The position numbers and the translations under genes were made by a program. From Branchiostoma floridae (Eukaryota > Chordata > Leptocardii > Amphioxiformes > Branchiostomatidae), in contig NC_049995.1 of the NCBI RefSeq assembly GCF_000003815.2, positions 6,556,342-6,620,341 on the forward strand: a stretch of 64,000 bases of DNA. Reading direction: 5' to 3'. Of the stretch, positions 1-47,150 are shown piece by piece (positions within the stretch are counted from its first letter, which is position 1; each line of letters starts with the position of its first letter). The notes under the pieces are model-generated. The model did not search any database and had not been told where the DNA came from. It saw only the letters and a list, made by a program, of their open reading frames with translations.

Positions 1-70
1 GACCGGAAAGGCAAGAAAACACCATTTGAAACCAAGAAAGGAGAATTATGCCCATAAAACACTGTCATAC

Positions 71-248
71 GTAAAAATCGTAGCCTTGACGTTTTCGTTC
101 CGGTTCGACGGTTGGGAGGTGCGTCCCTGCAGTTCAAATCGGTAGGGGGCGCTGCTGCGACTGCGCAGAAGGACGTACTCGCCGAACCCGTTGAAAGTGA
201 ACTCAATGCCGTCAGCGCTGGCTAAATGAGGGTCTCCAAATCCAGTGC
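71..248 (-). CDS. VWD domain, first exon (GDPH motif), partial
   Basis: The exon reads TGFGDPHLASADGIEFTFNG and onward, the classic start of a von Willebrand factor type D domain, with GDPH near its beginning. The proposed acceptor is a CAG next to 248, leaving 2 nt that complete a codon with the preceding AMOP exon (giving RCNG-TGFGDPH). A donor of the form GTATGA ends it at about 71 in phase 2. The rest of the VWD domain is outside the window. In MUC4 and related mucins GDPH is a self-cleavage site between D and P; whether that holds here is inference. The acceptor and family call are strong, the donor less so. Confidence 0.8.
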
Positions 249-1133
249 CTGGGTGCAATGATTAATATATCGAGTTTGTACATAGGGCAAAATAGAAGTA
301 TACAGGGTATGTAATGTACATATGTGTCTGATGTAATTTTAGTGTGTTTACTTTTGTAATCTTTCTGTCATGTCCGTTATGTGTGTGTTGATGTATTTAA
401 ACTTTAAAAATTTTTTAAAAGGATAGGTACTAGAATGGACATCATATATGATTCTGAATCCTGTAGACGATAGAAAGTAATTGGCCAGACTATTATGGAA
501 TGTTTTGGAAATGGAAATTGGAAAGAAAATACAATGTGACGGTTCTCATGTTTGAGATGGTTTTGAATTACTATTACACCAAAATCATTGACATCACAAA
601 CATGATCATGAATTGAATGCAGTCGTAAATGTAAAGCACACAGAGAAATGTTGTCGTTACGAGTACGGGCACTACGAACTAAAACATAATTTACAGCAAA
701 ATACATAGCTCAAAATGTAGAGATCTACACTTCGTGTCATCAGGCTGTTACATGACAAATTTTCTCGCTTTGATCATGATGCTATTCCATAATTCTTACC
801 TTGAATGACCATACTGTATGAACTACTGGTTGATCTGATCCGTCTACTGACATACATGTCCAAGTAGGCAGAAGAAGCTGATTGCATGGTGCACCACTGG
901 TAAGGTAAGTACTCTCTGGTGTAGTAAAGACTGCTGGTATCCGACAGGGGTGTCTGAAATGCAGGAATACATTTATGAAGGTTATCAAAAAGTAAAGTAT
1001 TTCAAGGCAATTCAGTCTCTACAACTGGACACAAAGCGGACATTAACTTCCGGACGTTTTGAGTTACATCCATCACTATTCGTCTGGGTAACAGGAATGA
1101 ACTGGCAGAATAATTCAGTACATATTACCTTAC
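249..1133. other. Intron between AMOP and VWD exons
   Basis: About 0.9 kb, AT-rich, with no reading frame I can support. A stretch at 782-957 has a plausible acceptor and donor on the minus strand, but its phase (2 in, 0 out) fits neither neighbour, so I treat it as intronic. Confidence 0.55.
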
Positions 1134-5902: not shown

Positions 5903-7479
5903 CTAAAAGCGAGAAACAAATCTTTATAAACTGGCCTTCTGAGCAATTTAGTAATTGATATACATAATGATTTCTTGCGAAAGGTACACAGGATGGCATC
6001 TACTGATACATAATTACAGTTCTGGGAGGCTAGTCTACTTGATACAAGGGTGCATAGTATGGGATTCCAGCACTCAATTCCATTCTGGTGGATTAGTACA
6101 AAATGCTGTACTATTCGATAGATTAGTACAAAATGCTTTATTAATCTACCTTAAAATTATTCTATAATTTGGTATTGTAGTTACTGTATTTATGTATTTC
6201 TGGTGTTCCTCGTCAGAGGACACATTTTAAAAACCGCCATACCGATAAACTTAACAATTCCATAGATCTGTCACATGTCCTGAAACCATTTCTTTTACGT
6301 CAGAACAAGACAGCTTCACGGATATTCCATGCAAGTACAACTCTGAATGTTTGGATGCATTTGTCACATTGCTTTTTGCATTTGAATGGTACATCATACA
6401 TGTCAATAGCGGGCAATTAGAATTAAGATTAGATTAGATTTCTTAGAACTGGTAACATGGCACAGTGTACATTTTTGTTACAAGCATCATTGAACTATAG
6501 AGCCGCATAAACTCATGCATTGCTTTGGCTGCTACCACCCATTGCGTAACATCAGCCACCTTTACGGCCACCCTGCTTTTGCTACATGCGATAACACCGG
6601 CTTCATCCTTTGTCCAGCGGCACCATCCGAGCACACCATAACAGCGTTTGATCTCACTAAGAGCAGTTTGAGCACTTTTGCGACCAGAAAGAAAACTAAG
6701 GGAGCTCAGTTAGGCCAACGTCCACTAGACGGCGACCGCGCTGCACTCTCACTGCGACCTGAATAGAATATGTGTATCCTTCGCTTCACACTGGTTATAT
6801 CATACAAAATGTAAAAGTGTGACCAAAAAGACAACAAAACACACAAAGTGTGAAAAGATTTGTTTCCTTTTTATACAATTCGTTGAGCGATCTGTCAAAT
6901 TTGTAGGTCGCAGAGAGAGCGCTGAGAGCGCCGTCCTAGTGGAAAGGTGGTATAAGCTGGCGATGAACAAGACAAAGTGGAGAGAGTTGAAGAACGACTA
7001 ATTGTAGCTTCAGAGTGCCCGGCTAAGACCATCGCAGCAGCAGAACACAGTGGACTACTAAAAGCAGCTCACAACTTACTTCCTGACGTTTACAATGTTG
7101 ATAACAATTCGACGAATGAGGGCCAAGGCAGCAGTTCCACAGAACACGCAAAATATTGATATAAGTAATAAGAACAAACGGAGATAAATTCGTTATTATA
7201 AGGTCTTGTCTTTTCTAAAGACAAATAGCATAGATGTCGACTCAAAAACACTTTCTAATCATCAATATGGAATATAGGAAAAATCTCGTTCAAGTAGCAG
7301 TTATCCATTCTTAGAAAGACACTCCTTCGTTTATCTTAAACGCTGTAAGTTTATCTCAAACCCTTTACCCCAAACTCTCAGAATTCTCTTTACTCATTCA
7401 AATTCCGACATACGTCATTGATAAGCGAGGGCATCATCATTGCTTTCCCCTTGTAAAGATATAGATATGAAAGATGTAC
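5903..7479. other. Intron between EGF3 and NIDO, 1.6 kb
   Basis: No supportable exon. At 6970-7070 a block related to 11259-11330 (AGTGGAGAGAGTTGAAGAA) marks a dispersed repeat; the rest is AT-rich unique sequence. Confidence 0.6.
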
Positions 7480-7626
7480 CTTTGCACTGCCCAGTAAAGG
7501 CGGTACCTTCGTCGGCAATGCTAACGAAACCTTCCACACATTCACAGGTGTAACTTCCTATGCTGTTGGTGCAGTGGGCGTTTTCGTCACATCTAGACAG
7601 TGCAGGGTCCAAACACTCGTTGATGT
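7480..7626 (-). CDS. EGF-like domain 3 (calcium-binding type)
   Basis: The exon codes for DINECLDPALSRCDENAHCT, then NSIGSYTCECVEGFVS and a tail ending GQCK. Six cysteines in EGF spacing, the calcium-binding start D-I-N-E-C, and the hydroxylation consensus C-x-N-x4-Y-x-C-x-C. Acceptor TTTTAG and donor GTACAT, phase 1 at both ends. The C5-C6 loop is longer than usual. Role: extracellular spacer or calcium-stiffened module between the TSR and NIDO. Confidence 0.9.
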
Positions 7627-8159
7627 CTAAAATAAATACAAACTGGTCATTATGGGGAAGACCAATGTATGATTGCAACAGGACAATACACGTGTGACGA
7701 ACCCTTTCAACATTACATTGAAAGACCATCTTAAAACGTAAATAGAACAACTGAGTGAGGCCTCAAACAGACATTTTTATAACGTATTATGTAGCTGGAT
7801 ACCTACAGTCCATCAACCCACGTATAAGGACCTCCCAGTTGCAACAGAAGTTTAAACTGTCGTGCTTTCCCTTCAAGAGCAATGGTTCAGAAACTATGTA
7901 CCCAGTGCAATATTTGCCATAAAGCAAACCTTACCAGACATTTACCGCTTTTGGTACATCCTACTTTTCATGCAGTGTATTGTTATAACAAAACTATAGT
8001 CATTTTCAATAAGCCCCATGGGCATGAAATTTGCTGTTTTCCAGTGACCTAAAAGAACCAAATACACTGGGTGAGCGAAGCGGATCGTTTACCAATTTTA
8101 TTCAAAAGGACTTGGGCCCATGGTTATAAGAGAAATGTCCTTATCACAATATGACCCAC
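7627..8159. other. Intron between EGF2 and EGF3
   Basis: About 530 bases of unique AT-rich sequence; nothing else recognised. Confidence 0.7.
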
Positions 8160-8285
8160 CTATACAGACAACTCCGTCTCCAGTGAATCCCTTGGGACAT
8201 TTGCAGGTGAAACCACCAGGAGTGTTGGTACAGATCCCTACCTCAGGGTCACAGTTCGACAGTCCGGTCGTACACTCATCAACGT
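8160..8285 (-). CDS. EGF-like domain 2 (calcium-binding type)
   Basis: A single 126-nt exon encodes one compact EGF domain: [20 protein letters not shown], then [18 protein letters not shown] and VVCIG. It has six cysteines, D-V-D-E-C calcium-binding start, and C-x-N-x4-F-x-C-x-C. Acceptor TTTCAG; donor GTGGGT; phase 1-1. Domain and exon borders coincide, as in most duplicated or shuffled EGF modules. Confidence 0.93.
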
Positions 8286-8860
8286 CTGAAACAAGACAAT
8301 ATAACTTTGCAATATACACGCATAGGTATATGAGATCTCTACAGATATCGACGGGCCTTGAGAGACATAAAGAAAGCGGTACTAAATATATTGCCCGATA
8401 AAAACGCATAAAACACGCCAAAAATAGCCGTTCTGTAGGGTACATATCTGCAACTGTTTTAACCTTTAAGCATTCTAGCATGAAAGATGATATCAGCACT
8501 GATCTTATCCGTCAACTCAAACATGGCTCACTAGTACTACGAGTAATGCAGAAGTGGAAGTAAATCTGAGCTATTAGAAATACATACATTTATCTTGAAG
8601 ATCAATGTCCGCACCTTAATTAAAATCTTCTCAGAACTATACTGATTATAACAGCAGTGTGCGTAGGAAATTCACGGTTTAGAATTATCATTGAAGAGAG
8701 GAAAAAACTTTCACAACTTATCATTCCGTTGTAGCACTGTGGGCTTTGAACCGCTTCAATACCGGGAAGGACCCCTACTCAATTGCGATCGTTTTGTGCT
8801 TGAGGTGTGGCTCTACGATCTACGTACCCCTGTAGGAAGGCCTGGTGGAGGATAACTTAC
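8286..8860. other. Intron between EGF1 and EGF2
   Basis: About 575 bases with no recognised element. Confidence 0.7.
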
Positions 8861-9010
8861 CCATACATCGCAGAAAGTTGCCCAGGTTATCCGTGATCCG
8901 GTTGTAACCGTTCTGGCAGTAACAGACGTAGTCCCGCTGTCTCATAGTACACACACCGCCGTGAAACTCCACTCCGCACCGATCCTCGACTTGGTCACAC
9001 CAGTCCACAA
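8861..9010 (-). CDS. EGF-like domain 1
   Basis: Reads VDWCDQVEDRCGVEFHGGVC, then TMRQRDYVCYCQNGYNRITD and a tail ending RCM. Six cysteines with the C-x-C pair and aromatic spacing of an EGF domain, but it lacks the D-x-[ND]-E calcium motif, so it is probably a non-calcium EGF. Acceptor TTTACAG, donor GTAAGT, phase 1-1. It joins the TSR exon through TTT (Phe). Confidence 0.85.
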
Positions 9011-9228
9011 CTGTAAACGGTACAAGCAACAAGCCACGCCGACTTGATTTATGAATGACATTCTCTGGAGATCCCAAAACTAATGCGCGCGGGCGACCAA
9101 AAAAAAATAATAAAATAAAATAAAATAAAACGTGCTGCTAAACCACAGGACTAAACATCCAGGCTTTTCCAGGCTAGGTTTGTCTAATTTTTACCTGCAG
9201 TAAGACTGTAAGAGATTTTAAGAAATCG

Positions 9229-9410
9229 TTCTGCTGCAGTACCAAGGTCACACACCAGGGGCCCAAAATCGACCTTGACCTTCCCAACACCTACCCACAT
9301 ACCAAATATCACAACAAACCATCCAGGTTCTAATGTTATGCTGACCACAAATATCCAGAAACCCAAACAAACAGACACACACAGGGACAGACACATGAAA
9401 TCATTTTTCG
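9229..9410. repeat. Dispersed repeat (GCTGCAGTACCAAGGT family), fuller copy
   Basis: Shares its first 17 bases with 4950-4966. It continues GGGCCCAAAATCGACCTTGA, CTAATGTTATGCTGACCACA and ends in a CAAACAGACACACA-type tail. This organisation is that of a short interspersed element with a simple-sequence tail. Confidence 0.5.
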
Positions 9411-9900: not shown

Positions 9901-10012
9901 ATCGTTTCCAGGTCTCATCAAGTAAATCCAATCAAGCATTCTCGAGTTATGCTGATAATACATAAAGACATACAACCGCTACCGAAGGCATAACTTTCTT
10001 GGCAAAACTTAC

Positions 10013-10195
10013 AGCCAACTGGGCAGTCCTGACCAACACAGACTTTGAACGCGGTGGCGTCCCCCTGGCAGTAGCGGCCGCCGTTCTGTGGAGCCGGGCT
10101 GTCACAGGTTCTACTGCGGACCTGCACGCTCACACCACACGTGGCCGTGCACTCTGTCCAGTTACTCCACGGCCCGAACATCCCATCTATGGGTC
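10013..10195 (-). CDS. Thrombospondin type 1 repeat (TSR)
   Basis: The 61-codon exon reads PIDGMFGPWSNWTECTATCG, then VSVQVRSRTCDSPAPQNGGR and YCQGDATAFKVCVGQDCPVG. The W-x-x-W-x-x-C core (a C-mannosylation signature), C-x-x-T-C-G (an O-fucose site consensus) and six cysteines identify a full TSR. Acceptor CTGCAG and donor GTAAGT, phase 1-1. TSRs bind glycosaminoglycans or matrix in many secreted proteins; partner unknown here. It sits between the A/B rod and the EGF domains. Confidence 0.95.
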
Positions 10196-10868
10196 CTGCA
10201 GGACATCAACGACAACAATGTCTCGGAAACATTCTTTATTTATTTTTATCTATTCGTTCACCTTTAGGGTCGTCCCTTCAGTTGATGTAACTGATTTCCA
10301 AGGGAGCCTAGTACAAAATAAATCATAACAAATCAAGAAAATCATTATTTACACAGGATTGAATTTACACAGGATTGAATCATAAGTTCATAATTATACA
10401 ACATAAAGTAGTGATCATCTTTGTATGAATAAATCATACAAATAAGTACATGGTACAAGTAACTATTACAACAATATTCACGTTTTGTTCACTCATTCTC
10501 ACTCGTGCAAATAGTTTCTTCATAATATAAACTCAAGCAAAACCAGTCTCATTATTATCACAAAATCACACATCGTGCTATTTCCGCAAGTTTCACTAAG
10601 AACAACGATCTATAAATTTACGACTTGGAATTCATAAATTTATAGATCGTTTGGTCAAATAGAGGAAGCACATTGGCACTGATAATTCGAGGTGTACAAA
10701 AATCCTAATATATCATGAAGCTTATCATGAGAACAGCAAAATCAAACTTATGTTTAAGGGCATTGCCCCGAAAAAAAATATTATTTGACTTCCTGTTGAT
10801 AGTTTAGCCAATCTTTGACAATGATTTACCTCAATTTACACAAAACCAGACAAAATGCAGAAACTCAC
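10196..10868. other. Intron between B1 and TSR, with perfect hairpin
   Basis: AT-rich. A perfect 16-bp inverted repeat (ACGATCTATAAATTTA) with a 14-base loop lies at 10605-10650. No exon seen. Confidence 0.7.
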
Positions 10869-11171
10869 CAGCTATTATGAAGGACATCAGAATAACCCTT
10901 TCCACACGTGTTATAGAGACAGAAATCTCGACACGTGTCTCGCTGCTAACGTCAGTAGACCATGAAAAGGCTGGTAAAAGTCGCTGTAGGTAGAACCTCT
11001 CGTTCAGCTCGATTCGTCTCGGCACAGGAGCCGAAACATCAACCAAGCTGCTGAAGTCTGTTGTGGTCACCATGGTGGTGTAGTGCGCTTGTAGGTTTGT
11101 GAGATGACGTTCAAAGTAGATCAGCATAGTTTCATCTGTTGTGCTGAGTGAAAGTTGCGATGGAAATACAC
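10869..11171 (-). CDS. Module B1 (last, most diverged B exon)
   Basis: 303 nt rather than 312. Reads VFPSQLSLSTTDETMLIYFE and keeps SLVDVSAPVPRRIELNERFY. It has lost the consensus middle (SWSVQANPQVEF becomes SWSTDVSSETRVEI). Donor GTGAGT leaves G, joining the TSR exon as Gly-Pro-Ile-Asp. Its divergence fits the oldest, edge position of a tandem array. Confidence 0.8.
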
Positions 11172-11398
11172 CTGAAAGAATGAGAAATGTTACATCTATG
11201 TTGCAAACTGCAAATTCTACAAGCTTTTGAGATGGATACAGTATGCATGCACATTTTACATAAGTGGAGAGAGTTGAAGAAAGACTGATTGCAGCTGCTG
11301 AGTGTCTAAGACAACTGCGGCAGTAGAACATAGTAACCAACTGCTACAGCATGCAAAGTGAACAAAAAGCTTTGCAAATAAGATGCTTTAATACGCAC

Positions 11399-11674
11399 CT
11401 ATTAGACCCTGGGTTATGTCGAGATTTTCAAGCTGCGTCAGCAAAAAGCCTGTATGTGTGACCCCTGGACCTTCCTGGTACACCAACACCCAGCGTTCAG
11501 ACTTCAATCTCACATTGGCTGTTGCTATAAGATTGACCAGTGGCACTCCGTCTTGGCTCTGAAGCTCTGTTAGCGACAAGTGAAAATCTTCGAGCTGGAG
11601 TTCTTCGGACAGTGGAGCGTCCAAGTTCAATTCCCAGACCGTTACGTCAGCACTCATAGCCGTGTAATCGAACA
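11399..11674 (-). CDS. Module A1
   Basis: Reads FDYTAMSADVTVWELNLDAP, ends DITQGLIG. 276 nt, acceptor CAG at 11675-11677, donor GTGCGT. Confidence 0.82.
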
Positions 11675-11857
11675 CTGAAAAAAAGAGAACAACAACTGAG
11701 TGTATCATACTTGTCTGTCATCTTTCGTTTGCAAGGCATATGAATAGCCTACACTGGCCACAAAGAATACACATAATGGATTAGAATAGTTGTCAGACAA
11801 TTCTACCATAATTAAACCTTAATTTACCTTCTTCAAAAGACTATGTGTTATACCCAC

Positions 11858-12169
11858 CTTCGACACTAGGTTGAGTAAAACTGACCAGAATGACTCTGTC
11901 AGTTGTACTTGGAGATACACTGATGCTAAACTCGACCTGGGGGTTGGCCTGCACAGACCATGATAATGTCGCTGGGAGTCGTTGTAAGTAGAAACGTTCG
12001 TTTAGCTCAATCCGACTTGGCACAGGAGCAGAGACATCCACCAGGCTGTTAAAGTCCGTTGTAGACATCATGCTGGTGTAGTCCGTTTGAAGAGAGGCCA
12101 GATGACGGCTGAAGTAGAGTTGGAAGGTCGCGCGTATGACGCTGACCTGAAGATCCCCAGCCAAGGCCC
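11858..12169 (-). CDS. Module B2
   Basis: Begins ALAGDLQVSVIRATFQLYFS. 312 nt; donor GTGGGT. A NAGNAG acceptor (CAGCAG) could shift the start by one codon. Indistinguishable in the parts I compared from B3 at 12811-13122. Confidence 0.82.
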
Positions 12170-12335
12170 CTGCTGTGAAAACGTAAGATTGAGTAAGCTA
12201 CAGTTCCTTTATCTGAGAACAAAGAGCTGATAAGGCTTCGACCCAGGAATATAGATTGGCTCAATTTTAATCAATGAACCATACCTAAAATTTGTAACTA
12301 AGATTATATCCAATAATAACACAAAAAGTACACAC

Positions 12336-12452
12336 CTGTCAGACCCTGGGTTATATCCAGATCCTCCAGCTCCGTCAGAATAAGCGCTGTATGTGTGGCG
12401 CCCGGACCTTCCTGGTACACCAACACCCAGCGCTCGGCCTTCAACCTCACAT
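12336..12452 (-). CDS. Module A2, broken by assembly gap
   Basis: Only the 3' 117 nt (VRLKAERWVLVYQEGPGATH onward) are sequenced; the 5' part falls in the N run 12453-12696. The remaining part is identical in the stretches I checked to the same part of A3. Confidence 0.75.
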
Positions 12453-12696
12453 NNNNNNNNNNNNNNNNNNNNNNNNNNNNNNNNNNNNNNNNNNNNNNNN
12501 NNNNNNNNNNNNNNNNNNNNNNNNNNNNNNNNNNNNNNNNNNNNNNNNNNNNNNNNNNNNNNNNNNNNNNNNNNNNNNNNNNNNNNNNNNNNNNNNNNNN
12601 NNNNNNNNNNNNNNNNNNNNNNNNNNNNNNNNNNNNNNNNNNNNNNNNNNNNNNNNNNNNNNNNNNNNNNNNNNNNNNNNNNNNNNNNNNNNNNNN
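12453..12696. other. Assembly gap (244 N)
   Basis: Unknown bases. The sequence on its two sides (11751-12452 and 12704-13405) appears to be the same ~700 bp twice. Confidence 1.
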
Positions 12697-12810
12697 CTCT
12701 ATTTCACTGGCCACAAAGAATACACATAATGGATTAGAATAGTTGTCAGACAATTCTACCATAATTAAACCTTAATTTACCTTCTTCAAAAGACTATGTG
12801 TTATACCCAC

Positions 12811-13122
12811 CTTCGACACTAGGTTGAGTAAAACTGACCAGAATGACTCTGTCAGTTGTACTTGGAGATACACTGATGCTAAACTCGACCTGGGGGTTGG
12901 CCTGCACAGACCATGATAATGTCGCTGGGAGTCGTTGTAAGTAGAAACGTTCGTTTAGCTCAATCCGACTTGGCACAGGAGCAGAGACATCCACCAGGCT
13001 GTTAAAGTCCGTTGTAGACATCATGCTGGTGTAGTCCGTTTGAAGAGAGGCCAGATGACGGCTGAAGTAGAGTTGGAAGGTCGCGCGTATGACGCTGACC
13101 TGAAGATCCCCAGCCAAGGCCC
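12811..13122 (-). CDS. Module B3
   Basis: Same protein as B2 and B4 (ALAGDLQVSVIRATFQLYFS and on), 312 nt, donor GTGGGT. Confidence 0.82.
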
Positions 13123-13288
13123 CTGCTGTGAAAACGTAAGATTGAGTAAGCTACAGTTCCTTTATCTGAGAACAAAGAGCTGATAAGGCTTCGACCCAGG
13201 AATATAGATTGGCTCAATTTTAATCAATGAACCATACCTAAAATTTGTAACTAAGATTATATCCAATAATAACACAAAAAGTACACAC

Positions 13289-13564
13289 CTGTCAGACCCT
13301 GGGTTATATCCAGATCCTCCAGCTCCGTCAGAATAAGCGCTGTATGTGTGGCGCCCGGACCTTCCTGGTACACCAACACCCAGCGCTCGGCCTTCAACCT
13401 CACATTGGCTGTTGCTATAAGATTGGCCAGTGGCACTCCGTCTTGGCTCTGAAGCTCTGTTAGCGACAGGTCAAAATCTTCGAGATGGAGTTCTTCGGAC
13501 AGTGGTGCGTCCAAGTTCAATTCCCAGACCGTTACGTCAGCACTCATAGCCGTGTAATCGAACA
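13289..13564 (-). CDS. Module A3
   Basis: FDYTAMSADVTVWELNLDAP with HLEDFDLSLTELQSQDGVPL; 276 nt; donor GTGTGT. Confidence 0.84.
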
Positions 13565-13747
13565 CTGAAAAAAAGAGAACAACAACTGAGTGTATCATAC
13601 TTGTCTGTCATCCTTCATTTTCAAGGCATATGAATAGCCTACACTGGCCACAAAGAATACACATAATGGTTTAGAATAGTTGTCAGACAATTCTACCCTA
13701 ATTGAAAATTAATTTACCTTCTTCAAAAGACTATGTGTTATACCCAC

Positions 13748-14059
13748 CTTCGACACTCGGTTGAGTAAAACTGACCAGAATGACTCTGTCAGTTGTACTT
13801 GGGGATACACTGATGCTAAACTCGACCTGGGGGTTGGCCTGCACAGACCATGATAATGTCGCTGGGAGTCGTTGTAAGTAGAAGCGTTCGTTTAGCTCAA
13901 TCCGACTTGGCACAGGAGCAGAGACATCCACCAGGCTGTTAAAGTCCGTTGTAGACATCATGCTGGTGTAGTCCGTTTGAAGAGAGGCCAGATGACGGCT
14001 GAAGTAGAGTTGGAAGGTCGCGCGTATGACGCTGACCTGAAGATCCCCAGCCAAGGCCC
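13748..14059 (-). CDS. Module B4
   Basis: 312 nt, protein identical to B2 and B3 in the window, with scattered silent or intronic differences (for example GGGGATACACTG against GGAGATACACTG). Confidence 0.84.
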
Positions 14060-14225
14060 CTGCTGTGAAAACGTAAGATTGAGTAAGCTACAGTTCCTTT
14101 ATCTGAGAACAAAGAGCTGATAAGGCTTCGACCCAGGAATATAGATTGGCTCAATTTTAATCAATGAACCATACCTAAAATTTGTAACTAAGATTATATC
14201 CAATAATAACACAAAAAGTACACAC

Positions 14226-14501
14226 CTGTCAGACCCTGGGTTATATCCAGATCCTCCAGCTCCGTCAGAATAAGCGCTGTATGTGTGGCGCCCGGACCTT
14301 CCTGGTACACCAACACCCAGCGCTCGGCCTTCAACCTCACATTGGCTGTTGCTATAAGATTGGCCAGTGGCACTCCGTCTTGGCTCTGAAGCTCTGTTAG
14401 CGACAGGTCAAAATCTTCGAGATGGAGTTCTTCGGACAGTGGTGCGTCCAAGTTCAATTCCCAGACCGTTACGTCAGCACTCATAGCCGTGTAATCGAAC
14501 A
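14226..14501 (-). CDS. Module A4
   Basis: 276 nt; protein identical to A3; introns on both sides also nearly identical to those around A3. Confidence 0.84.
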
Positions 14502-14684
14502 CTGAAAAAAAGAGAACAACAACTGAGTGTATCATACTTGTCTGTCATCCTTCATTTTCAAGGCATATGAATAGCCTACACTGGCCACAAAGAATACACA
14601 TAATGGTTTAGAATAGTTGTCAGACAATTCTACCCTAATTGAACCTTAATTTACCTTCTTCAAAAGACTATGTGTTATACCCAC

Positions 14685-14996
14685 CTTCGACACTCGGTTG
14701 AGTAAAACTGACCAGAATGACTCTGTCAGTTGTGCTTGGGGATACACTGATGCTAAACTCGACCTGGGGGTTGGCCTGCACAGACCATGATAATGTCGCT
14801 GGGAGTCGTTGTAAGTAGAAGCGTTCGTTTAGCTCAATCCGACTTGGCACAGGAGCAGAGACATCCACCAGGCTGGTAAAGTCCGTTGTAGACATCATGC
14901 TGGTGTAGGCCGTTTGAAGAGAGGCCAGATGACGGCTGAAGTAGAGTTGGAAAGTCGCACGTATGACGCTGACCTGAACACCCGTAGGTAAGTCCC
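14685..14996 (-). CDS. Module B5
   Basis: 312 nt; begins DLPTGVQVSVIRATFQLYFS, has AYTSMMSTTDFTSL. The intron upstream of it differs from those of B2-B4, marking the edge of the recently homogenised block. Confidence 0.84.
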
Positions 14997-15274
14997 CTGC
15001 TGTAAAAAGAATAAGTTAACACAGTTTTATATCTCCAAGTACATGACAAACAAAAAAAGGCAAAATATTGAAAAAGTGTATCGTTAGATTATCAAAACTA
15101 AATAATGTGGCATACTTTGAAATCAAATTACAATTACACTTCATTGTTACTTTCGTTTTTGGCAACAAACTTTGGATCAGTCTCTACACCAAAGTATAAG
15201 ATTTCATACATTGCATTAGGAAATAAAATTGTAAATTAGAGTTAAGATGAGAATAAAACACAGAAACTACACAC

Positions 15275-15550
15275 CTGTCAGACCCTCGGTTATGTCTAGG
15301 CTCCCCAACTCCGTCAGAATAAGCGATGTATGTGTGGCGCCCGGACCTTCCTGGTACACCAACACCCAGCGCTCCGCCTTCAACGTCATACTGGCTGTTC
15401 TTGCAAGATTGGCCAGTGGCACTCCGTCTTGGCTCTGCAGCTCTGTTAGTGACACCTGGAACTGTTCCAGCTGGAGTTCTTCGGACAGACCAGCATCCAA
15501 GTTTGATTCCCAGGACGTTACGTCAGCATCCATAGCCGCATAATCAAACA
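15275..15550 (-). CDS. Module A5
   Basis: 276 nt; FDYAAMDADVTSWESNLDAG, ends LGSLDITEGLTG. An older variant with QLEQFQVSLTELQSQDG. Confidence 0.84.
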
Positions 15551-15695
15551 CTGGAAGAAGAGAAGAACAACTAAGTCAATCATCCTTCATTTACATGGCA
15601 TATAAATAGCATAAACTGGTCAAAGAAAAAAAATATGTATAATGGCTGAGAATAGTTGTCATACAATGCTAAGAGAGACTATATGTTACACTCAC

Positions 15696-16010
15696 CTTCG
15701 ACAGTCGGTTGAGTAAAGCTGACCAGAATGACTCTGTCACTTGTGCTTGGAGATACACTGATGCTAAACTCGACCTGGGGGTTGGCCTGCACAGACCATG
15801 ATAATGTCGCTGGGAGTCGTTGTAAGTAGAAGCGTTCGTTTAGCTCAATCCGACTGGGCACAGGAGCAGAGACATCCACCAGGCTGGTAAAGTCCGTTGT
15901 AGACATCATGCTGGTGTAGTCCGTTTGAAGAGAGGCCAGATGACGGCTGAAGTAGAGTTGGAAGGTCGCACGTATGACGCTGACCTGAACATTTACAGCC
16001 AACGCCCCAG
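15696..16010 (-). CDS. Module B6
   Basis: 315 nt: a CAGCTG replaces CAGCAG at the acceptor, so the exon starts one codon earlier than in its sisters. Reads GALAVNVQVSVIRATFQLYF. Confidence 0.82.
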
Positions 16011-16171
16011 CTGTGAAAACATAACATTGAGTAAGCTACAGTTTGTTTATCTGAGAACAAATAGCTGATAAGACTTTGACCCAGGAATATAAATTGTCTT
16101 AATTTTGATCAATGAATCATACCAAAAATTTTAGCTAAGGTTATATTCAATTAAACACAAAAACTACACAC

Positions 16172-16447
16172 CTGTGAGACCCTGGGTTATATCCAGATCC
16201 TCCAGCTCCGTCAGAATAAGCGCTGTATGTGTGACGCCCGGACCTTCCTGGTACACCAACACCCAGCGCTCCGCCTTCAACCTCACATTGGCTGTTCTTA
16301 CAAGATTGACCAGTGGCACTCCGTCTTGGCTCTGCATCTCTGCTAGCGACACCTGGAATTGTTCCATCTGAAGTTCTTCGGAAAGTGCAGCATCCAAGTT
16401 CAATTCCCAGGCCGTTACGTCAGTTCGTATAGCCGCATAATCAAATA
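16172..16447 (-). CDS. Module A6
   Basis: 276 nt; FDYAAIRTDVTAWELNLDAA with QMEQFQVSLAEMQSQDGVPL; donor GTGTGT. Confidence 0.84.
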
Positions 16448-16605
16448 CTGAAAGAAGAGAAGAACAGCTCAGTGTATCATTCTTCAATTAAATGGCAAAT
16501 AGAAAGGCTACATTGGCAACAGACAAATATACATAATGGCTGAGAATAGTTGTAAATACAATTCTAAAAAACCTTAGATTAACCTTCTTTGTAAGACACA
16601 CCCAC

Positions 16606-16917
16606 CTTCGACACTCGGCTGAGTAAAGCTGACAAGAATGACCCTGTCAGTTGTACTTGGAGATAAACTGATGCTAAACTCGACCTGGGGGTTGGCCTGC
16701 ACAGACCATGATAATGTCGCTGGGAGTCGTTGTAAGTAGAAGCGTTCGTTTAGCTCAATCCGACTTGGCACAGGAGCAGAGACATCCACCAGGCTGTTAA
16801 AGTCCGTTGTAGACATCATGCTGGTGTAGTCCGTTTGAAGAGAGGCCAGATGACGGCTGAAGTAGAGTTGGAAGGTCGCACGTATGACGCTGACCTGAAC
16901 AGTTACAGCCAAGGCCC
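16606..16917 (-). CDS. Module B7
   Basis: 312 nt; ALAVTVQVSVIRATFQLYFS; donor GTGGGT. Confidence 0.84.
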
Positions 16918-17083
16918 CTGCTGTGAAAACGTAAGATTGAGTAAGCTACAGTTCCTTTATCTGAGAACAAAAAGATGATAAGGCTTCGACCCAGGAATAT
17001 AAATTGGCTTAATTTTAATCAATGAACCATACCTAACATTTTTAGCTAAGATTATATCCAATAATGATATAAAAAGTACACAC

Positions 17084-17359
17084 CTGTCAGACCCTGGGTT
17101 ATATCCAGATCCTTCAACTCCGTCAGAATCAGCGCTGTATGTGTGACGCCCGGACCTTCCTGGTACACCAACACCCAGCGCTCCGCCTTCAACCTCATAC
17201 TGGCTGTTCTTGCAAGATTGGTCAGTGGCACTCCGTCTTGGCTCTGCAGCTCTGTTAGTGACACCTGGAACTGTTCCAGCTGGAGTTCTTCGGACAGTGC
17301 AGCATCCAAGTTCGATTCCCATGCCGTTACGTCAGCATGCATAGCTGTATAATCAAAAA
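17084..17359 (-). CDS. Module A7
   Basis: 276 nt; FDYTAMHADVTAWESNLDAA; ends LKDLDITQGLTG. Confidence 0.84.
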
Positions 17360-17513
17360 CTGAAAAAAAAAGAGAAAAACAGCTGAGTGTATCATCCTTG
17401 GCAGATGAGTAGCCTACACTGTCCACAGAAAAAAAATGGCGAAGAACAGTTGTCACACAATTCTAAAAGAACCTTAGATTTAACTTCTTTGAAAGACTAT
17501 GTGTCACACTCAC

Positions 17514-17825
17514 CTTCGACACTCGGTTGAGTAAAACTGACCAGAATGACTCTATCAGTTGTACTTGGGGATACACTGATGCTAAACTCGACCTGGGGGT
17601 TGGCCTGCACAGACCATGATAATGTCGCTGGGAGTCGTTGTAAGTAGAAGCGTTCGTTTAGCTCAATCCGACTTGGCACAGGAGCAGAGACATCCACCAG
17701 GCTGGCAAAGTCCGTTGTAGACATCATGCTGGTGTAGTCCGTTTGAAGAGAGGCCAGATGACGGCTGAAGTAGAGTTGGAAGGTCGCGCGGATGACGCTG
17801 ACTTGGACATTTGTAGGCAATGCCC
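17514..17825 (-). CDS. Module B8
   Basis: 312 nt; ALPTNVQVSVIRATFQLYFS; donor GTGAGT, acceptor CTGCAG. Confidence 0.84.
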
Positions 17826-18075
17826 CTGCAGTACCAAACAGCATAATGAATAAGTTAAGGTTCAAACATATGTCTGATTACAAAGCATAATAGGAAAAAA
17901 GTCACAATGATGAAACGGCAATTGAACGTAATCATACTAAACTATTTCGATAAAAGATGTAAGATTATACTATTTTAGGGCAACAATGTTGAATCGATTT
18001 CTACCCAGCAATATAAATTCGACATTATTGCACTACAAACACATAAGATATTTCCAGTATAGCACATAACATATA

Positions 18076-18175
18076 NNNNNNNNNNNNNNNNNNNNNNNNN
18101 NNNNNNNNNNNNNNNNNNNNNNNNNNNNNNNNNNNNNNNNNNNNNNNNNNNNNNNNNNNNNNNNNNNNNNNNNNN
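18076..18175. other. Assembly gap (exactly 100 N)
   Basis: Round size suggests a placeholder gap of unknown true length. It removes the 3' end of module A8; the bases next to it (TTCGT after GAGGATCTG) already differ from all sister modules and may be poor contig-end sequence. Confidence 1.
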
Positions 18176-18434
18176 ACGAACAGATCCTCCAGCTCCGTCA
18201 GAATAAGCGCTGTATGTGTGACGCCCGGACCTTCCTGGTACACCAACACCCAGCGCTCCGCCTTCAACCTCACATTGGCTGTTGCTATAAGATTGGCCAG
18301 TGGCACTCCGTCTTGGCTCTGCAGCTCTGTTAGCGACACCTGAAATTGCTCGAGCTGGAGTTCTTCTGACAGTGCAGCATCCAATTTCGATTCCCAGGCC
18401 GTTACGTCAGCACGCATAGCCGTGTAATCGAAAA
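18176..18434 (-). CDS. Module A8, 3' end lost in gap
   Basis: FDYTAMRADVTAWESKLDAA through ALILTELEDL, then the gap. About 17 nt of exon are missing if it had the usual length. Confidence 0.78.
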
Positions 18435-18622
18435 CTGAAAAGGTGCAGCAACAAAACTACATGTAAGTCTCAGATCCTTCTTGTAGTGCTTGACGAATAT
18501 AAAATATTCCTCTAAGTAACTCTATTCTTCAGGACCAGAGGAAAACATACGTAGAAGAAAAGGCTATCATACAAATGAAAAAAAATTATCTTCTCTAATT
18601 TAATACTGTGTGTTACACCCAC

Positions 18623-18934
18623 CTTCGACACTCGGTTGAGTAAAGCTGACCAGAATGACTCTGTCAGTTGAACTTGGGGATACACTGATGCTAAACTCGA
18701 CCTGGGGGTTGGCCTGCACAGACCATGATAATGTCGCTGGGAGTCGCTGTAAGTAGAAGCGTTCGTTTAGCTCAATTCGACTGGGCACAGGAGCAGAGAC
18801 ATCCACCAGGCTGTTAAAGTCCGTTGTAGACATCATGCTGGTGTAGTCCGTTTGAAGAGAGGCCAGATGACGGCTGAAGTAGAGTTCGTAGGCATTGCGT
18901 ATGGCACTGACCACAACTTTTGCAGGCAAGACCC
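18623..18934 (-). CDS. Module B9 (first B)
   Basis: 312 nt; starts VLPAKVVVSAIRNAYELYFS, with a diverged front but consensus back half. Donor GTGGGT. Confidence 0.84.
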
Positions 18935-19532
18935 CTGTAGTAACGAAGAACATGCTTACTGAAGTTCAGTTTTCTTATCATCTGAAGCAAGATTTAACAA
19001 TTATTGTAGAAAAAACACTTTCTGTAGTTTTATCTAGTATATGGCCGGTATAACCACCCTTCGGTGTAACACACCAGCTTGGCAGGCACGGGGCGCGGCA
19101 GTAGCTGGTTATACATGTATTAGACTGAATGACCCGTCACACCTTACCTCTGCACATCTATTTTCAAGCGTTCTTTAAAAACTATACAGAGAAGATGCTC
19201 CTACTATCCTTGGTGATACATTCAATAAAACAACTTCTTAATGACATGCGGTGAAGATGATGATGATGATGATTCTTAATCAATGAGTTCCAGTTTTTTC
19301 ATCATCTGAAGCATTGATGACTAAGGCGATATTTAGGAGATACGTAAAGGTTAGCAGTTGTCATAGGAAAAACACATTCAATAAGATTTCGCAATAACAC
19401 ATTTTGATTTCTAGTTTACAATTCCTTGCTAGGCATATGCCTAGATAAGATTTTGTCATTGCAAAATTACATTGACCCTATCATTCTCCGAACAGTCGGG
19501 CATACTGAGAATGAGACTCTCTTTTTACATAC
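18935..19532. other. Intron A9-B9 with dispersed repeat
   Basis: At 19031-19215 it carries the fuller copy of the repeat also seen at 1285-1390 (GGCCGGTATAACC ... GCGTTCTTTAAAA ... GAGAAGATGC). A short (GAT)n run is at 19257-19272. No exon seen. Confidence 0.6.
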
Positions 19533-19808
19533 CAGTCAGACCCTGGGCTACGTCTAGGTTTTCCAACTCTGGCAGTAAAAGTGCTGTATGTGTGACGCCC
19601 GGCCCTTCATTGTACACCAACACCCAGCGCTCCGAAGTCAACTCCACGTTGGCTGTCCCTTCCAAATTGACCAATAGGGCTCCATCTTGGCTCTGAAGCT
19701 CTGTTAATGACACCTGGAACTCGTCTAGCTGAAGTTCCTCAGAAAGTGCAGCATCCACGTTTGAGACCCATGTGGTTATTTCCTCTTGCATGACATAGTA
19801 GTCAAACA
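19533..19808 (-). CDS. Module A9 (first A, joins mucin exon)
   Basis: 276 nt; FDYYVMQEEITTWVSNVDAA, QLDEFQVSLTELQSQDGALL, ends LDVAQGLTG. The most diverged A. Acceptor CAACAG; donor GTATGT. Joins the mucin exon donor at 20277 in phase 1. Confidence 0.84.
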
Positions 19809-20276
19809 CTGTTGAACGGCCGGTATGATTAATTGATTTGCCTGATAGCATGGCAACTCTGCATACAAACGTTTGAACAATACATGACTTTGACAAAGAG
19901 CCTTTTCTTATGCATTTTAGTTGGTTAGAATGTATGATGTTAGTTGCCAAGATTTTTGATTTCTTAGTTCAATTTTTCATGGACCCTGTTCGTGGCTTTT
20001 CATTTTCTACAAAGTGTTTCATTCGATATTATAAGACCAATTGTACTTCGAAAGTAATAATGAATACATCCATACTGAACCCAGCTTGGCAGTTTTGCAA
20101 GAGTATTATACTTTCAAAGATCTATGGACAATATCATATGTCCTTCTTTAATTGTTACCCATTTACTACTAAAAAATTACAATGGTTTGTTTTTCATTCC
20201 CTACCCCTTGTTAACGTATGGCAGCCTAGGTTTTTATACATTTCATTAGTAATCGGTAAGCATGTACATTACTTAC
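19809..20276. other. Intron between mucin exon G and A9
   Basis: About 470 bases, AT-rich, nothing recognised. Its GTAAGT start at 20276 is a full-consensus donor. Confidence 0.75.
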
Positions 20277-23200
20277 AAAGTCCCTGTGGTCCCTCAGACG
20301 AGTACATTGTTGTGGGGGCGGTGGATGGTAGGGTTGTCTTTGGTTTTGTCGATACCATAGGTTTTGTTGTATGACCAGCAGTTGTAAATGGTGCTGTTCC
20401 TGTAGTTGCTATTGTAGAGGTTCTTGTTGTAAAATCAGTACTTTTGGCAGTAGCTTCGGTTGTGAACTGACTAGACGTGTGCCCAACTGTTGTTGTAAAA
20501 GGTGCTGTTGCTGTAGGGTCTATTGTAGAAGGCATCGTTGTAAAAGCAGTACTTTTGGCTGTGGGTTCAGTTGTGACATGACTAGACGTATGTCCAACTG
20601 TTGTTGTAAAAGGTGCTGTTCCTGTAGGGTCTATTGTAGAAGGCATCGTTGTGAAAGCAGTACTTTTGGCTGTGGGTTCAGTTGTGAACTGACCGGACGT
20701 CTGTCCAAATGTTGTTGTAAAAGGTGTTGTTTCAATAGATGCTATTGTAGAGGCCCTTGTTGTAAAAGCGGTACTTTTGGCTGTGGGTTCAGTTGTGACA
20801 TGACTAGACGTATGTCCAACTGTTGTTGTAAAAGGTGCTGTTGCTGTAGGGTCTATGGTAGAAGGCATCGTTGTGAAAGCAGTACTTTTGGCTGTGGGTG
20901 CAGTTGTGACATGACTAGACGTATGTCCAACTGTTGTTGTAAAAGGTGCTGTTGCTGTAGGGTCTATGGTAGAAGGCATCGTTGTAAAAGCAGTACTTTT
21001 GGCAGTAGCTTCGGTTGTGAACTGACTAGACATGTGCCCAACTGTTGTTGTAAAAGGTGCTGTTGCTGTAGGGTCTATGGTAGAAGGCATCGTTGTAAAA
21101 GCAGTACTTTTGGCAGTAGCTTCGGTTGTGAACTGACTAGACGTGTGCCCAGCTGTTGTTGTAAAAGGTGCTGTTGCTGTAGGGTCTATGGTAGAAGGCA
21201 TCGTTGTGAAAGCAGTACTTTTGGCTGTGGTTTCAGTTGTGAACTGGCCGGACGTCTGTCCAAATGTTGTTGTAAAAGGTGCTGATACTGTAGGGTCTAT
21301 GGTAGAAGGCATCGTTGTGAAGCAGTCCTTTTGGGTGTGTTTCAGTTGTGAACTGGCCGGACGTCTGTCCAAATGTTTTGTAAAAGGTGTTGTTTCAATA
21401 GATGCTATGGTAGAAGGCATCGTTGTAAAAGCAGTACTTTTGGCAGTAGCTTCGGTTGTGAACTGACTAGACGTGTGCCCAACTGTTGTTGTAAAAGGTG
21501 CTGTTACTGTAGGGTCTATGGTAGAAGGCATCGTTGTGAAAGCAGTACTTTTGGCTGTGGCTTCAGTTGTGATCTGGCTAGACGTGTGCTTGCCTGTTGT
21601 TGTAAAACTAGCGGTGGGGACTGTCGTTTCTGCCTGTGTTGTTGACGTAAATGGCATTGTTGCAGTGGATGCTATGGAGGAGGCACTTGTTGTAAAACCA
21701 TCTGCAGTCGTTTCTGGCTGTGTTGTTTCAGTAGTGAACTGACCAGATGTTTTGACTCTTGTTGTAGTAAACGGCTTTGTTTCAGTAGACGTGATGGTAG
21801 AAGCTCTTGTAGTAGGACCAACAGTTGTGCGTAATGTTTCTAGTACTGTTTGAAAAGTTGTCCGAGGACCAGTTGTTTCTCTTTTTGTTGTAAATGGCAA
21901 TGTTGCAGTAGATGATGTTGTAGAGGCCTCTGTTGTAGGACTAGTGGTCGGTACAGTCGTCTCTGGTGCTGTTGTTACGGTAGAGAACTGGTCTGTTGTT
22001 ACTTTACTTGTTGCTTCAGATGTAATGCTTGTTGTAGAAGCTATGGTTGATGCCCTAGTTGTGTGATCAGCGGTTTTGGCTGTTGTGTCAGTTGTAAACA
22101 TGCCAGATGTCAGGTCACTTGTTGTGGATGCTATTGTTGTGGTGGATGCTTTAGAAGAAGCCTTAGTGGTGGTAAAACTAGCGGTGGTGGCTGTCGTTTC
22201 TGGCTGTGTTGTTTCAGTTGTGAATTGGCCGGACGTTTCTGCACTTGTTGCCGTAAATGGCGTTGTTGCAGTGGATGCTTTGGAAGAAGCTCCAACGGTG
22301 GTAAAACTAGCGGTGGTGGTTGAAGTTTCTGATTGCATTGTTTCAGTTGTGAACTGGCCGGATGTTTTTGCACGTGTCGTAAATGGCGTTGTTGCAGTGG
22401 ATGCTATGGAGGACGCACGTGTCGTAGAGTCATCTGTGGTCGTTTCTGGCTGTGTTGTTTCTGTTGTTACCTGACCAGATGTTTTTGCACGTGCTGTTGT
22501 AAACGGCAATGTTTCAGTAGACGTGGTGGTAGAAGCTCTTGTAGTAGGACCAACAGTTGTGCGTAATGTTTCTAGTACTGTTTGAAAAGTTGTCCGAGGA
22601 CCAGTTGTTTCTCTTTTTGTTGTATATGGCAATGTTGCAGTAGATGCTGTTGTAGAGACTCCTATTGTATGACTAGTGGTCGGTACAGTCGTCTCTGGTG
22701 CTGTTGTTACGGTAGAGAATTGGTCTGTTGTTAGTTTACTTGTTGCTTGAGATGTAATGCTTGTTGTAGAAGCTATGGTTGATGCCCTAGTTGTGCGATC
22801 AGCGGTTTTGGCTGTTGTGTCAGTTGTAAACATGCCAGATGTCAGGTCACTTGTTGTGGATGCTATTGTTGTGGTGGATGCTTCAGAAGAAGCCTTAGTG
22901 GTGGTAAAACTAACGGTGGTAGCTGTCGTTTCTGGCTGTGTTGTTTCAGTTGTGAATTGGCCGGACGTTTCTGCACTTGTTGCCGTAAATGGCGTTGTTG
23001 CAGTGGATGCTTTGGAAGAAGCTCCAACGGTGGTAAAACTAGCGGTGGTGGTTGAAGTTTCTGATTGCATTGTTTCAGTTGTGAACTGGCCGGATGTTTT
23101 TGCACGTGTCGTAAATGGCGTTGTTGCAGTGGATGCTATGGAAGACGCACGTGTCGTAGAGTCATCTGTGGTCGTTTCTGGCTGTGTTGTTTCTGTTGTT

Positions 23201-24068
23201 ACCTGACCAGATGTTTTTGCACGTGCTGTTGTAAACGGCAATGTTTCAGTAGACGAGATAGTAGAATCTCTTGTAGTAGAACCAGCAGTTGTGCCCAATG
23301 TTTCTAGAACTGTTTTATATGTTGTTCTTGGACCAGTTGTTGCTGGCGCTGTTGTTACAGTAGATGCTACTGTGGAGACCCCTGTTGTAGGACTAGTTGT
23401 TTGTATAGTCGACTCTTCTGCTGTTGGTGAAGATGAGAACTGACCTGTTGTAATTCTACTTGTTGTTTGAGACGGCAAAGTTGTTGTGGGAACTATTGTT
23501 GAGGACTTTGTTGTACGGCCAGCAGTTGTGATTGTAGATTCGGTGGTTACCAGATCGGACGTTTTCACATTTGTTGTAACTGGTGTTGTCGCAGTAGATG
23601 CTATTGAAGAAGCCCTTGTTGTAGGGCCAACGGTTGTGAATGTCGTTTCTAGTTCCGTTGTTACCGGTACCGTTGTGGCCTGGCCAGTTGTTTCTTTACT
23701 GGTTGTCAGGGGGAGTGTTTCAGTAGATTGTACTGTAGATGTCCTTGTTGTAGATCCAGGGGTTGTTTCTAAAGTCTCCAGTAATGTTTTATGAGATGTC
23801 ATTTCATTTGTTGATGTGAATAGCATTGTTGGGGTAGAAGCCTTCGTTAAAGGCCCAGTAGCTGTTAAAGTTGTTGCTGGTTCTACTGTTGCAGTTGTGA
23901 ACTTGGCAGTTGTTATGTCACGTGTTGAGCCCATCGTTGTTGGAAATACCATCGTTGGCATTCGCGCTGTAGAACTTGCAGTTGTGAATGCCGTTCCCAC
24001 ACCTGTGGTTACATCTGTGGTCTGCTCACTTGTCGTCGTTTTTCTGCTCTCCGTTGTTGTGTCAGGCC
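20277..24068 (-). CDS. Gene 1 mucin exon G (Thr/Ser-rich, about 1264 codons)
   Basis: Acceptor TTTGCAG, then GPDTTTESRKTTTSEQTTDV; ends SSEGPQGL before donor GTAAGT, phase 1-1. Composition is dominated by Thr, Ser, Ala and Pro, as expected of a heavily O-glycosylated mucin stalk; Cys and Trp are almost absent. Two layers of repeat are seen: a ~730-bp higher-order block (about 22060-23320) and, at the 3' end, ten or so copies of a 37-residue unit (AKSTAFTTMPSTIDPTATAP and [15 protein letters not shown]). A run of out-of-frame residues (KHLDRRPASSQLKHTQKDC) at about 21316-21376 marks compensated single-base deletions. The 37-residue array is absent from the sister exon of gene 2. Confidence 0.88.
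20461..21600 (-). repeat. 111-bp (37-residue) tandem array
   Basis: Unit starts near AGACGT on the + strand at 20473, 20584 and about 20695 (ggacgt), i.e. exactly 111 bp apart, and continues to about 21600. In-frame Thr/Ser/Pro repeat; units are 90% alike or better by eye. Confidence 0.85.
22060..23330 (-). repeat. Higher-order repeat, 730-bp period, two copies
   Basis: GGCTGTTGTGTCAGTTGTAA occurs at 22078 and 22808. The following several hundred bases match with few changes. Confidence 0.8.
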
Positions 24069-24445
24069 CTGCAAAACAAACCAGAACGCTTGATACCAAC
24101 ACTATGTACTCAGGATAGGGCTCGATAAACACTTAACAACAGACACTCCTGACTGGATCTGTACACTGTTATTCTGTATAGCATTCACACTTGTAATCAT
24201 TAAAAATTATACAGATGTTGAGAAAAAATATATATATATATGTATACATAATTGATATTGTAATTACTTTGTTTCTATCTTGTTAACACTTATCTAAAGT
24301 AATGCATTGACTGTAGTTCTCTCTATACTGACAAATAAATCAAATCAGAATCAGCGACTAGTAAGTATACAACATAAATATGAGACTGCACAGCGTGGAA
24401 ACTGTTACAATGTCGGTTAATCCGTTATACTATCCGTTTCTTTAC
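24069..24445. other. Short intron between mucin exons F and G
   Basis: About 380 bases, with a short (TA)n at 24230-24242 that is much expanded in the gene 2 copy (38069-38108). Ends TTGTTTTGCAG. Confidence 0.75.
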
Positions 24446-27400: not shown

Positions 27401-28039
27401 TCGTTGTGTAAAGCTCCGCTTTAGTGGTCTGAGACTGTGTTGTAGTTGATTGTTTCACTGTAGTCTGCTGTTGTGTCGTTGGTACCGTCGATATCCCAGC
27501 TGTGGCTTCTTTCGTCACTGCTGTTGTAGCAGTTGTAACTTCATTTGTGGTCTGAAATTCTTCTACTGTCGGAGTAATGGTCAACGCTTCCGTTGTTCCT
27601 TGCTCTACTGTTGGAATGACTGACGCTGCTTTATTTGTAGTCTCTTGCTCCACTGTTGGATTGACTGACACAAACGCTGTTGTTATCTGATTGCTGATGA
27701 TGACGTCAGTTGTAGCCGCTTGTACTCCAATGGACTTGTTCCTGATCACTTTTTCAGTTTTTGTTAAGTTTTGATTTGTGCCAGTGGCAAGGCTTCTAAC
27801 ATGTCGGCTTGAACCGTTTTTCGTTGAATTAATTTTGCTTTTTACTGATCGTTCTTTGACTTTGAGTCGGATTAACTCGGGATGTGTGCTGTTTTTTAAC
27901 CGTTTGTGCTGTATCATGTAGTCCTCATCGTGTTCCGATGGCACTGGAGTTGTTGGTGAGAAGTCTTGTAGGAGGCGTTCTAACGTGACGGCAGGTGACC
28001 TCAGTGACCTGGATGGGTCATGCGAAATCTTGAAATGGT
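24446..28039 (-). CDS. Gene 1 mucin exon F (about 1198 codons)
   Basis: Acceptor CTTTTTCAG, then HFKISHDPSRSLRSPAVTLE; joins the signal-peptide exon through GAC (Asp). The first ~90 residues are non-repetitive and basic (KERSVKSKINST, SRHVRSLATG), with a minimal R-x-x-R processing motif; then Thr/Ser-rich repeats, many of a ~28-residue unit (FSTEDASTAATTTQDDTTVP). I place the donor at 24446 (GTAAAG); an equally in-phase GTATAA lies after 24431. If neither is used the frame ends at TAA 24417-24419. The last ~800 bp are almost identical to those of gene 2 exon D. Confidence 0.85.
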
Positions 28040-33889: not shown

Positions 33890-34084
33890 CTACAACATTT
33901 GTCATGAACGAAATTGTTTCTTCTTCAAAAATTGACATCAAAGTTAAGTCATCATTAAGTGAAAAAAATTGAAAGATTAAGTGGGACATTAATGTATGAA
34001 GACATCATGTAGTAGACAAAATGTTGGACACAACATTTACAGATACAGGAGGAACACCTTGATACATAATGAAATCGAACTTAC

Positions 34085-37927: not shown

Positions 37928-38064
37928 CTGCAAAACAAACCAGAACGCTTGATACCAACGCTATGTACTCAGGATATGGCTCGATAAACACTTGACTACA
38001 AACAGTCATGACTTGATATGTATACTGTATTGCATTCACAGCAGCAATTATTCAAAACTATGCA

Positions 38065-38113
<49 letters not shown>

Positions 38114-38328
38114 ATACTGTATCCAAGAATATATGTATCCTTGCAATAAAGCTTGTATCCTATAAACACTTATGTAAAGTAAAGCATTGACTGTAGTTCT
38201 CTCTATGCTGACAAATAAATCAAATCAGAATCAGCGACTAGTAAGTATACAACATGAATGTGTAAATACTGCACAGCGTTAAAACTGTTACAATTGCGGT
38301 TAATCCGTTATACTATCCGTTTCTTTAC
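37928..38328. other. Short intron between exons D and E, with (TA)n
   Basis: Matches 24069-24445; has a (TA)n run at 38069-38108 not expanded in gene 1. Confidence 0.75.
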
Positions 38329-43434: not shown

Positions 43435-43638
43435 CTGAAAAAGAGAATGAATTATCAGTTATTTACAGTTCATCAAATCACAATGAAAACCCGAATAGGT
43501 AACACCATTATATTTTCGTTTTTTTTCTAGTTGCGAAGGATGAAAATGCTTAGTAATAACTCCATTGCAACTTCATGCCCGAAGGCCAATTGTATAGCAG
43601 TGGTATACATAATTATATACTTAACAAAGAAGGCAAAT

Positions 43639-46864: not shown

Positions 46865-47150
46865 TTGCAAAGCTTGTAAATGTAAGTTCACACAATACGA
46901 TAACTCACCTGATTTGGTATTACATTTTAGGACGAACAGAGAGCCACTATCCTCTTAAAATCACAAAACCCACAAATTGTAGAAAGTGGGACCCTTTGTC
47001 TTCCTCTGCTTCCAAAATAGAAGTCAAGCCCAACCTATCTAGATATCGTCAACACTAGTATTCGAGTAGTCTCTTGGCATAATGATATTTATCACAATCC
47101 ATAGTTGTATGCATATCCCCTAACTTTTTTCTACCATGTACTTTCAATTA

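Follow-up and report, generated by a model that had tools for sequence, protein, structure and literature searches.

Alternating A and B exons on the minus strand

The stretch of DNA analysed here, referred to as the window, comprises 64,000 nucleotides of Branchiostoma floridae (NC_049995.1, positions 6,556,342 to 6,620,341). On its minus strand, positions 10869-19808 hold A and B exons that alternate strictly, nine of each, detected by both a motif scan and a profile scan; an A exon and the B exon that follows it are called here the A-B module (Table 1). The splice scan placed both ends of the array at splice sites, with A1 starting at 19808 and B9 ending at 10869. Outside the nine A and nine B exons, the profile scan of the window returned nothing better than E 0.97.

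A preliminary description of this DNA had reported fixed exon lengths in almost all copies, and this was borne out. The A exon measures 276 bp (92 codons) in seven of nine copies, A2 and A8 being interrupted by N gaps, and for the B exon a length of 312 bp (104 codons) fits seven of nine copies, B4 having 315 bp and B9 303 bp. For five of the seven 312-bp B exons, a CAGCAG acceptor makes 315 bp equally possible. All readable acceptors and donors of the array are in phase 1 (the A2 donor and the A8 acceptor fall inside gaps), and phase 1 borders are the rule for exchangeable extracellular modules. No cysteine was found in the translations of the A and B exons of the window array.

The ratio of nonsynonymous to synonymous substitution rates (dN/dS) was calculated between copies. 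A1 gave 0.19-0.37 against seven other A copies (A8 omitted) at dS 0.59-1.12, and B9 gave 0.24-0.31 against the eight other B copies (first 98 codons) at dS 1.36-1.71. For closer copy pairs that yielded a value, the ratio reached up to 0.73 and never exceeded 1. Because the pairwise ratios are low, A and B are constrained coding exons under purifying selection.

A6 and A7, and likewise B6 and B7, show zero amino-acid differences, and most other copies differ mutually. Moreover, 11752-12452 is identical to 12705-13405 over 701 bp, one copy ending at the N gap 12453-12696 and the other starting 8 bases past it, a pattern expected of overlapping contig ends that were left unmerged. Copy 8 is therefore probably an assembly artefact in which copy 7 is represented twice, although a very recent true duplication beside the gap is also possible. 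Such an artefact leaves the array intact, since most other copies differ and a second array exists. All nine two-exon copies of the preliminary description were detected by motif and profile, but because copy 8 probably equals copy 7 through failed contig merging, eight A-B pairs are likely to be real. A second near-identical match (98.3% over 1367 bp, introns included) joins 12705-14071 and 13642-15008; it is taken as a genuine recent duplication because it lies entirely within the gap-free stretch 12697-18075.

Table 1. Exons of the A-B array and neighbouring features in the window
Feature	Position	Strand	Remarks	Basis
Exon A1	19533..19808	-	92 codons, phase 1-1; the A copy that diverges most	Splice scan, profile
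Exon B1	18623..18934	-	104 codons	Splice scan, profile
Exon A2	18159..18434	-	3' end in N gap 18076-18175; end inferred from usual length	Motif, splice scan
Exon B2	17514..17825	-		Splice scan, profile
Exon A3	17084..17359	-		Splice scan, profile
Exon B3	16606..16917	-	Alternative acceptor 16920	Splice scan, profile
Exon A4	16172..16447	-		Splice scan, profile
Exon B4	15696..16010	-	105 codons	Splice scan, profile
Exon A5	15275..15550	-		Splice scan, profile
Exon B5	14685..14996	-	Alternative acceptor 14999	Splice scan, profile
Exon A6	14226..14501	-		Splice scan, profile
Exon B6	13748..14059	-	Alternative acceptor 14062	Splice scan, profile
Exon A7	13289..13564	-	Identical to A6 in coding comparison	Splice scan
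Exon B7	12811..13122	-	Alternative acceptor 13125	Splice scan, profile
Exon A8	12336..12611	-	First 160 bases (5') masked by N gap 12453-12696, start therefore set by usual length; probably an assembly duplicate of A7	Coding comparison, sequence identity
Exon B8	11858..12169	-	Identical to B7; alternative acceptor 12172; probable assembly duplicate	Coding comparison, sequence identity
Exon A9	11399..11674	-		Splice scan, profile
Exon B9	10869..11171	-	Divergent terminal B, 101 codons	Splice scan, coding comparison, profile
Open frame rich in proline, threonine and serine (PTS; mucin)	20269..24132	-	Lies upstream of A1 and encodes 1287 residues; a phase 1 donor is likely after base 20277	Open reading frame list; donor read by eye
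Open frame with thrombospondin type 1 domain (TSR)	9921..10205	-	Next recognised module past B9	Pfam TSP_1, E 3.6e-14
Three EGF-like frames	7418..9137	-	8823-9137 (under cut-off), 8101-8511, 7418-7762	Pfam
NIDO segment	3374..3784	-	Over cut-off	Pfam NIDO, E 1.1e-7
VWD segment with GDPH motif	49..261	-	Below cut-off (20.8 bits, cut-off 22.9); frame near window edge	Pfam VWD, E 5.1e-4

A-B pairs elsewhere in the genome

The 513-Mb genome assembly (431 contigs) was searched for relatives. The A query returned 27 places. Nine belong to the window and ten to a second array, which lies about 43 kb away on the same contig in the opposite orientation; the other eight are diverged and fall on contigs 4, 12 and 13. 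With these four further loci, A-B is not peculiar to one gene. The array B query returned 21 places in the two arrays and one weak match on contig 4 (E 0.0066), and profiles located a B after each of the eight diverged A exons. With the contig 4 relative as the query, 26 A places and 29 B places were found, all at the same loci and at no others.

The order of the exons is ABABAB on contig 12, ABAB on contig 13, ABABAB on contig 4 and nine AB pairs in the window; the second array reads BAB, a gap, B and nine AB pairs. Across all loci found, each of the 27 A exons is followed by a B, and the 2 of 29 B exons that lack a preceding A both follow N gaps. The eight diverged A exons are all in phase 1 at both ends. 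Because A is always followed by B and the contig 4 A and B queries return the same loci, the two exons probably make up a single unit, each forming one half.

The module had been characterised as cysteine-free, which holds for both arrays but not for the family as a whole. A cysteine pair is present in the B of 6/8 diverged relatives and missing from 2/8, so the lack of cysteines is a trait of the arrays. No array B segment carries the pair, the cysteines noted there falling past the exon end, and this distribution suggests that a disulfide was lost as a pair. N-glycosylation motifs occur in 1 of 27 A and 2 of 29 B segments, none of them inside the arrays. Since the terminal A and the terminal B of the window array are each nearest to their counterparts in the second array, it appears that the array was duplicated as a block and became joined to different downstream modules.

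The module settings differ among the loci. On contig 13 (L015, L016 and L028), all modules lie on a single strand: EGF repeats precede the first pair, Mucin2_WxxW exons separate the two pairs, and the second pair is followed by Sushi (above cut-off in one of two cases) and VWA. Past the second array, frames with candidate phase-1 borders follow on the same strand: Sushi, C-type lectin, LDLa, an unassigned piece, Kringle, Sushi and a Cys-loop ligand-gated channel. This run toward the channel extends from L021 position 9385 to L030 position ~6000 (contig 17, ~6.524-6.531 Mb, plus strand), with matches to the channel's ligand-binding domain (E 9.5e-7) and membrane region (E 1.9e-8). It possibly represents a mosaic channel, or else two neighbouring genes. 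Banyai and Patthy (PMC4967905) argue that odd domain combinations in lancelets are probably gene prediction errors. Near the contig 12 pairs, one lectin fragment was found, below cut-off, and the single frame scanned around the contig 4 pairs gave no family match.

Family searches and the nature of the A-B unit

With matches admitted up to E 10, Pfam recognised neither A nor B, nor A+B. When diverged relatives were added, one of 14 A sequences matched GntR (E 0.089) and one of 12 B sequences matched P2 phage GpR (E 0.0097), which the B9 frame also matched (E 0.036); these single-member matches to bacterial and phage families were attributed to chance. The FN3, Ig and CUB profiles did not match A or B in Pfam at E up to 10, nor were they found in five diverged relatives at E up to 5. 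An NCBIfam scan of the nine B copies was likewise empty. Among PDB sequences, a match to SLC26A6 spanning the A-B junction (E 0.024) and one to a bacterial regulator (E 0.54) were at chance level, and the remaining A and B profiles matched nothing. A search of genome_contigs for prokaryotic relatives of B, and A and B queries against viral_contigs, yielded no confirmed locus. The idea that A and B are copies of one another was also rejected, since hhalign aligned 6 columns with a probability of 0.4%. No paper on the module was found by title or abstract opening.

SEA deserves separate mention, because a strong match to a known domain such as SEA had been named as the finding that would overturn the claim of novelty. 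SEA is an extracellular module occurring in mucins, with a ferredoxin-like beta-alpha sandwich fold and an autoproteolysis motif of the GSVVV type that is not universal. The SEA profile (PF01390) did not match A or B at E up to 10. As a positive control, it matched 91 places in the genome (E up to 1). Of these, 15 were marked as exceeding the curated cut-off, and all 91 lie away from the A-B loci. Moreover, the cleavage motif is absent from the 27 A and 29 B segments (56). A-B resembles the SEA domain of membrane mucins as an extracellular module of mucins, but it spans two exons and has neither the profile match nor the motif. The earlier statement that the module cannot be assigned to SEA, FN3, Ig, CUB or another family agrees with these chance-level or empty Pfam and PDB searches, and the profile search proposed with it named no known fold. 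Judged by these searches, A-B is a family that none of the searched libraries names.

Structure models were made with AlphaFold for single exons. A alone (14 sequences) gave three helices, with a predicted local distance difference test (pLDDT) score of ~72-78 over residues 1-40 and below 50 over residues 50-92. B alone (nine closely alike sequences) gave a mean pLDDT of 50. These poor single-exon models are compatible with halves that fold together.

The reading we favour, with about even confidence, is that exons A and B together encode one extracellular domain of ~196 residues, which is absent from the searched libraries and has been multiplied in tandem here as a folded stalk. Specifically, A and B would fold together as one domain; tandem duplication would have multiplied A-B to probably eight copies between the PTS region and the TSR-EGF-NIDO-VWD modules; and the array would act as a folded stalk or spacer that holds the O-glycosylated mucin brush at a set distance from the protein base, its copy number shifting by unequal exchange through similar introns. 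A rod or stalk role is plausible. Tandem spacer arrays of FN3, Ig or cadherin domains likewise consist of repeated symmetric exons amid other extracellular modules; A-B differs in lacking a match to those Pfam profiles, and its A half is modelled as helical with moderate confidence.

Several points weigh against this reading. The folded alignments were shallow (9 and 14 sequences) and covered single exons only, so the poor models may reflect depth alone. Across all loci, A distances correlate with the distances of the following B (r 0.92), which chiefly mirrors the split between arrays and relatives; within the arrays, the same 17 A copies correlate equally with the downstream B (r 0.43) and the upstream B (r 0.43), so array distances express no preference for A-B or B-A as the duplication unit. 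Array and relative A exons share 33-42% identity, and B exons only 19-24%; the contig 4 relative B query finds the array B exons at E 0.005 to 0.54. Because these B values are weak, the link between the B exons of arrays and relatives rests largely on position after A. Additionally, B donor sites are unclear in 4/8 relatives (both L013 copies, L014 and L019), genome match counts are lower bounds from one genome with gaps, and the extracellular gene model is predicted from sequence.

Three other explanations were weighed. It is rather unlikely that A and B represent distinct small domains which only happen to travel together. Each array exon is symmetric (phase 1-1) and could move alone, the A and B profiles show no likeness, and A alone gives a partly confident helical part; however, the two exons were not found apart in the genome, the B query finds no B outside A loci, and neither half yields a confident whole model. 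We consider it quite possible, if somewhat short of an even chance, that A-B belongs to a known fold family, whether SEA-like or of some other alpha/beta extracellular type, from which it has diverged beyond the reach of profiles. Many extracellular domains diverge that far, which counts for this explanation, as do the helices of the A model and the helices followed by strands in the poor B model. The Pfam matches, limited to one member each for a bacterial and a phage family, and the SEA control and motif results speak against it, though a shared fold would be compatible with all of these.

The third explanation concerns function: instead of a spacer, the array would form a multivalent surface that binds microbes or glycans. 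Pairs of the second array and of contig 13 share a strand with Sushi, C-type lectin, VWA, EGF or WxxW modules, several of which are binding modules, and the lectin fragment near the contig 12 pairs is below its cut-off. Moreover, interior A copies differ more from one another than interior B copies do. Yet the cores are conserved across copies and no pairwise dN/dS lies above 0.73, and we regard a binding surface as a rather unlikely alternative to the stalk.

A bolder reading, which we hold to be less likely than not, is that A-B is an undescribed composite domain with its own fold. Exon shuffling would have carried it into various large mosaic surface proteins of the animal, and it would have been expanded into long arrays twice: in one case as a mucin stalk, in the other at the distal end of an ectodomain whose Sushi, C-type lectin, LDLa, Kringle and Sushi modules lead into a Cys-loop ion channel. 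A-B may be a protein domain so far without a name; an extracellular domain that belongs to no family deserves one, and further genes could then be recognised by it. Its two-exon make-up, varied module sets and two arrays offer a handle on how this animal builds its surface and mucus proteins. The link between the second array and a possible ion-channel gene, if true, would be an unusual coupling of surface contact to channel opening.

Mucin context of the window array

The array was described as lying between a mucin stalk and a TSR, and the scans agree, with a PTS frame upstream and a TSP_1 match downstream. More large PTS frames lie upstream of the 1287-residue frame. Judging by order, strand and phase, the window exons would belong to one transcript.

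NIDO, AMOP, vWD and the GDPH site are described as hallmarks of MUC4 in two papers (PMC5354666, PMC8660890). MUC4 is a membrane mucin of the order PTS-NIDO-AMOP-VWD-EGF, and the window strand resembles it in having giant upstream PTS frames, NIDO, EGF and a putative VWD segment with GDPH; a transmembrane end would lie past the window start. It differs in the TSR ahead of the EGF frames and in the A-B array, in the lack of an AMOP match in the window and in a VWD match under the cut-off. To our knowledge, the A-B array is no part of MUC4. AMOP gave seven matches genome-wide at E up to 0.01 and none in the window; an AMOP suspected by eye at ~2.4-2.9 kb was unsupported by the Pfam scans and the genome AMOP search.

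Other repeats were noted in and near the window. The PTS blocks at 20300-28150 and 34000-43550 are mostly mutual copies, ~83-90% identical in long matches. The window start (1-578, with the VWD exon) recurs at 98.4% identity in L032 at 8768-9345, about 2.6 kb before the window and beside an N gap, and this is perhaps an assembly duplication like that of copy 8. An open frame at 47240-47578 matches the helix-turn-helix domain of a Mos1-type transposase, and 47149-47730 recurs in L032 at 96%.

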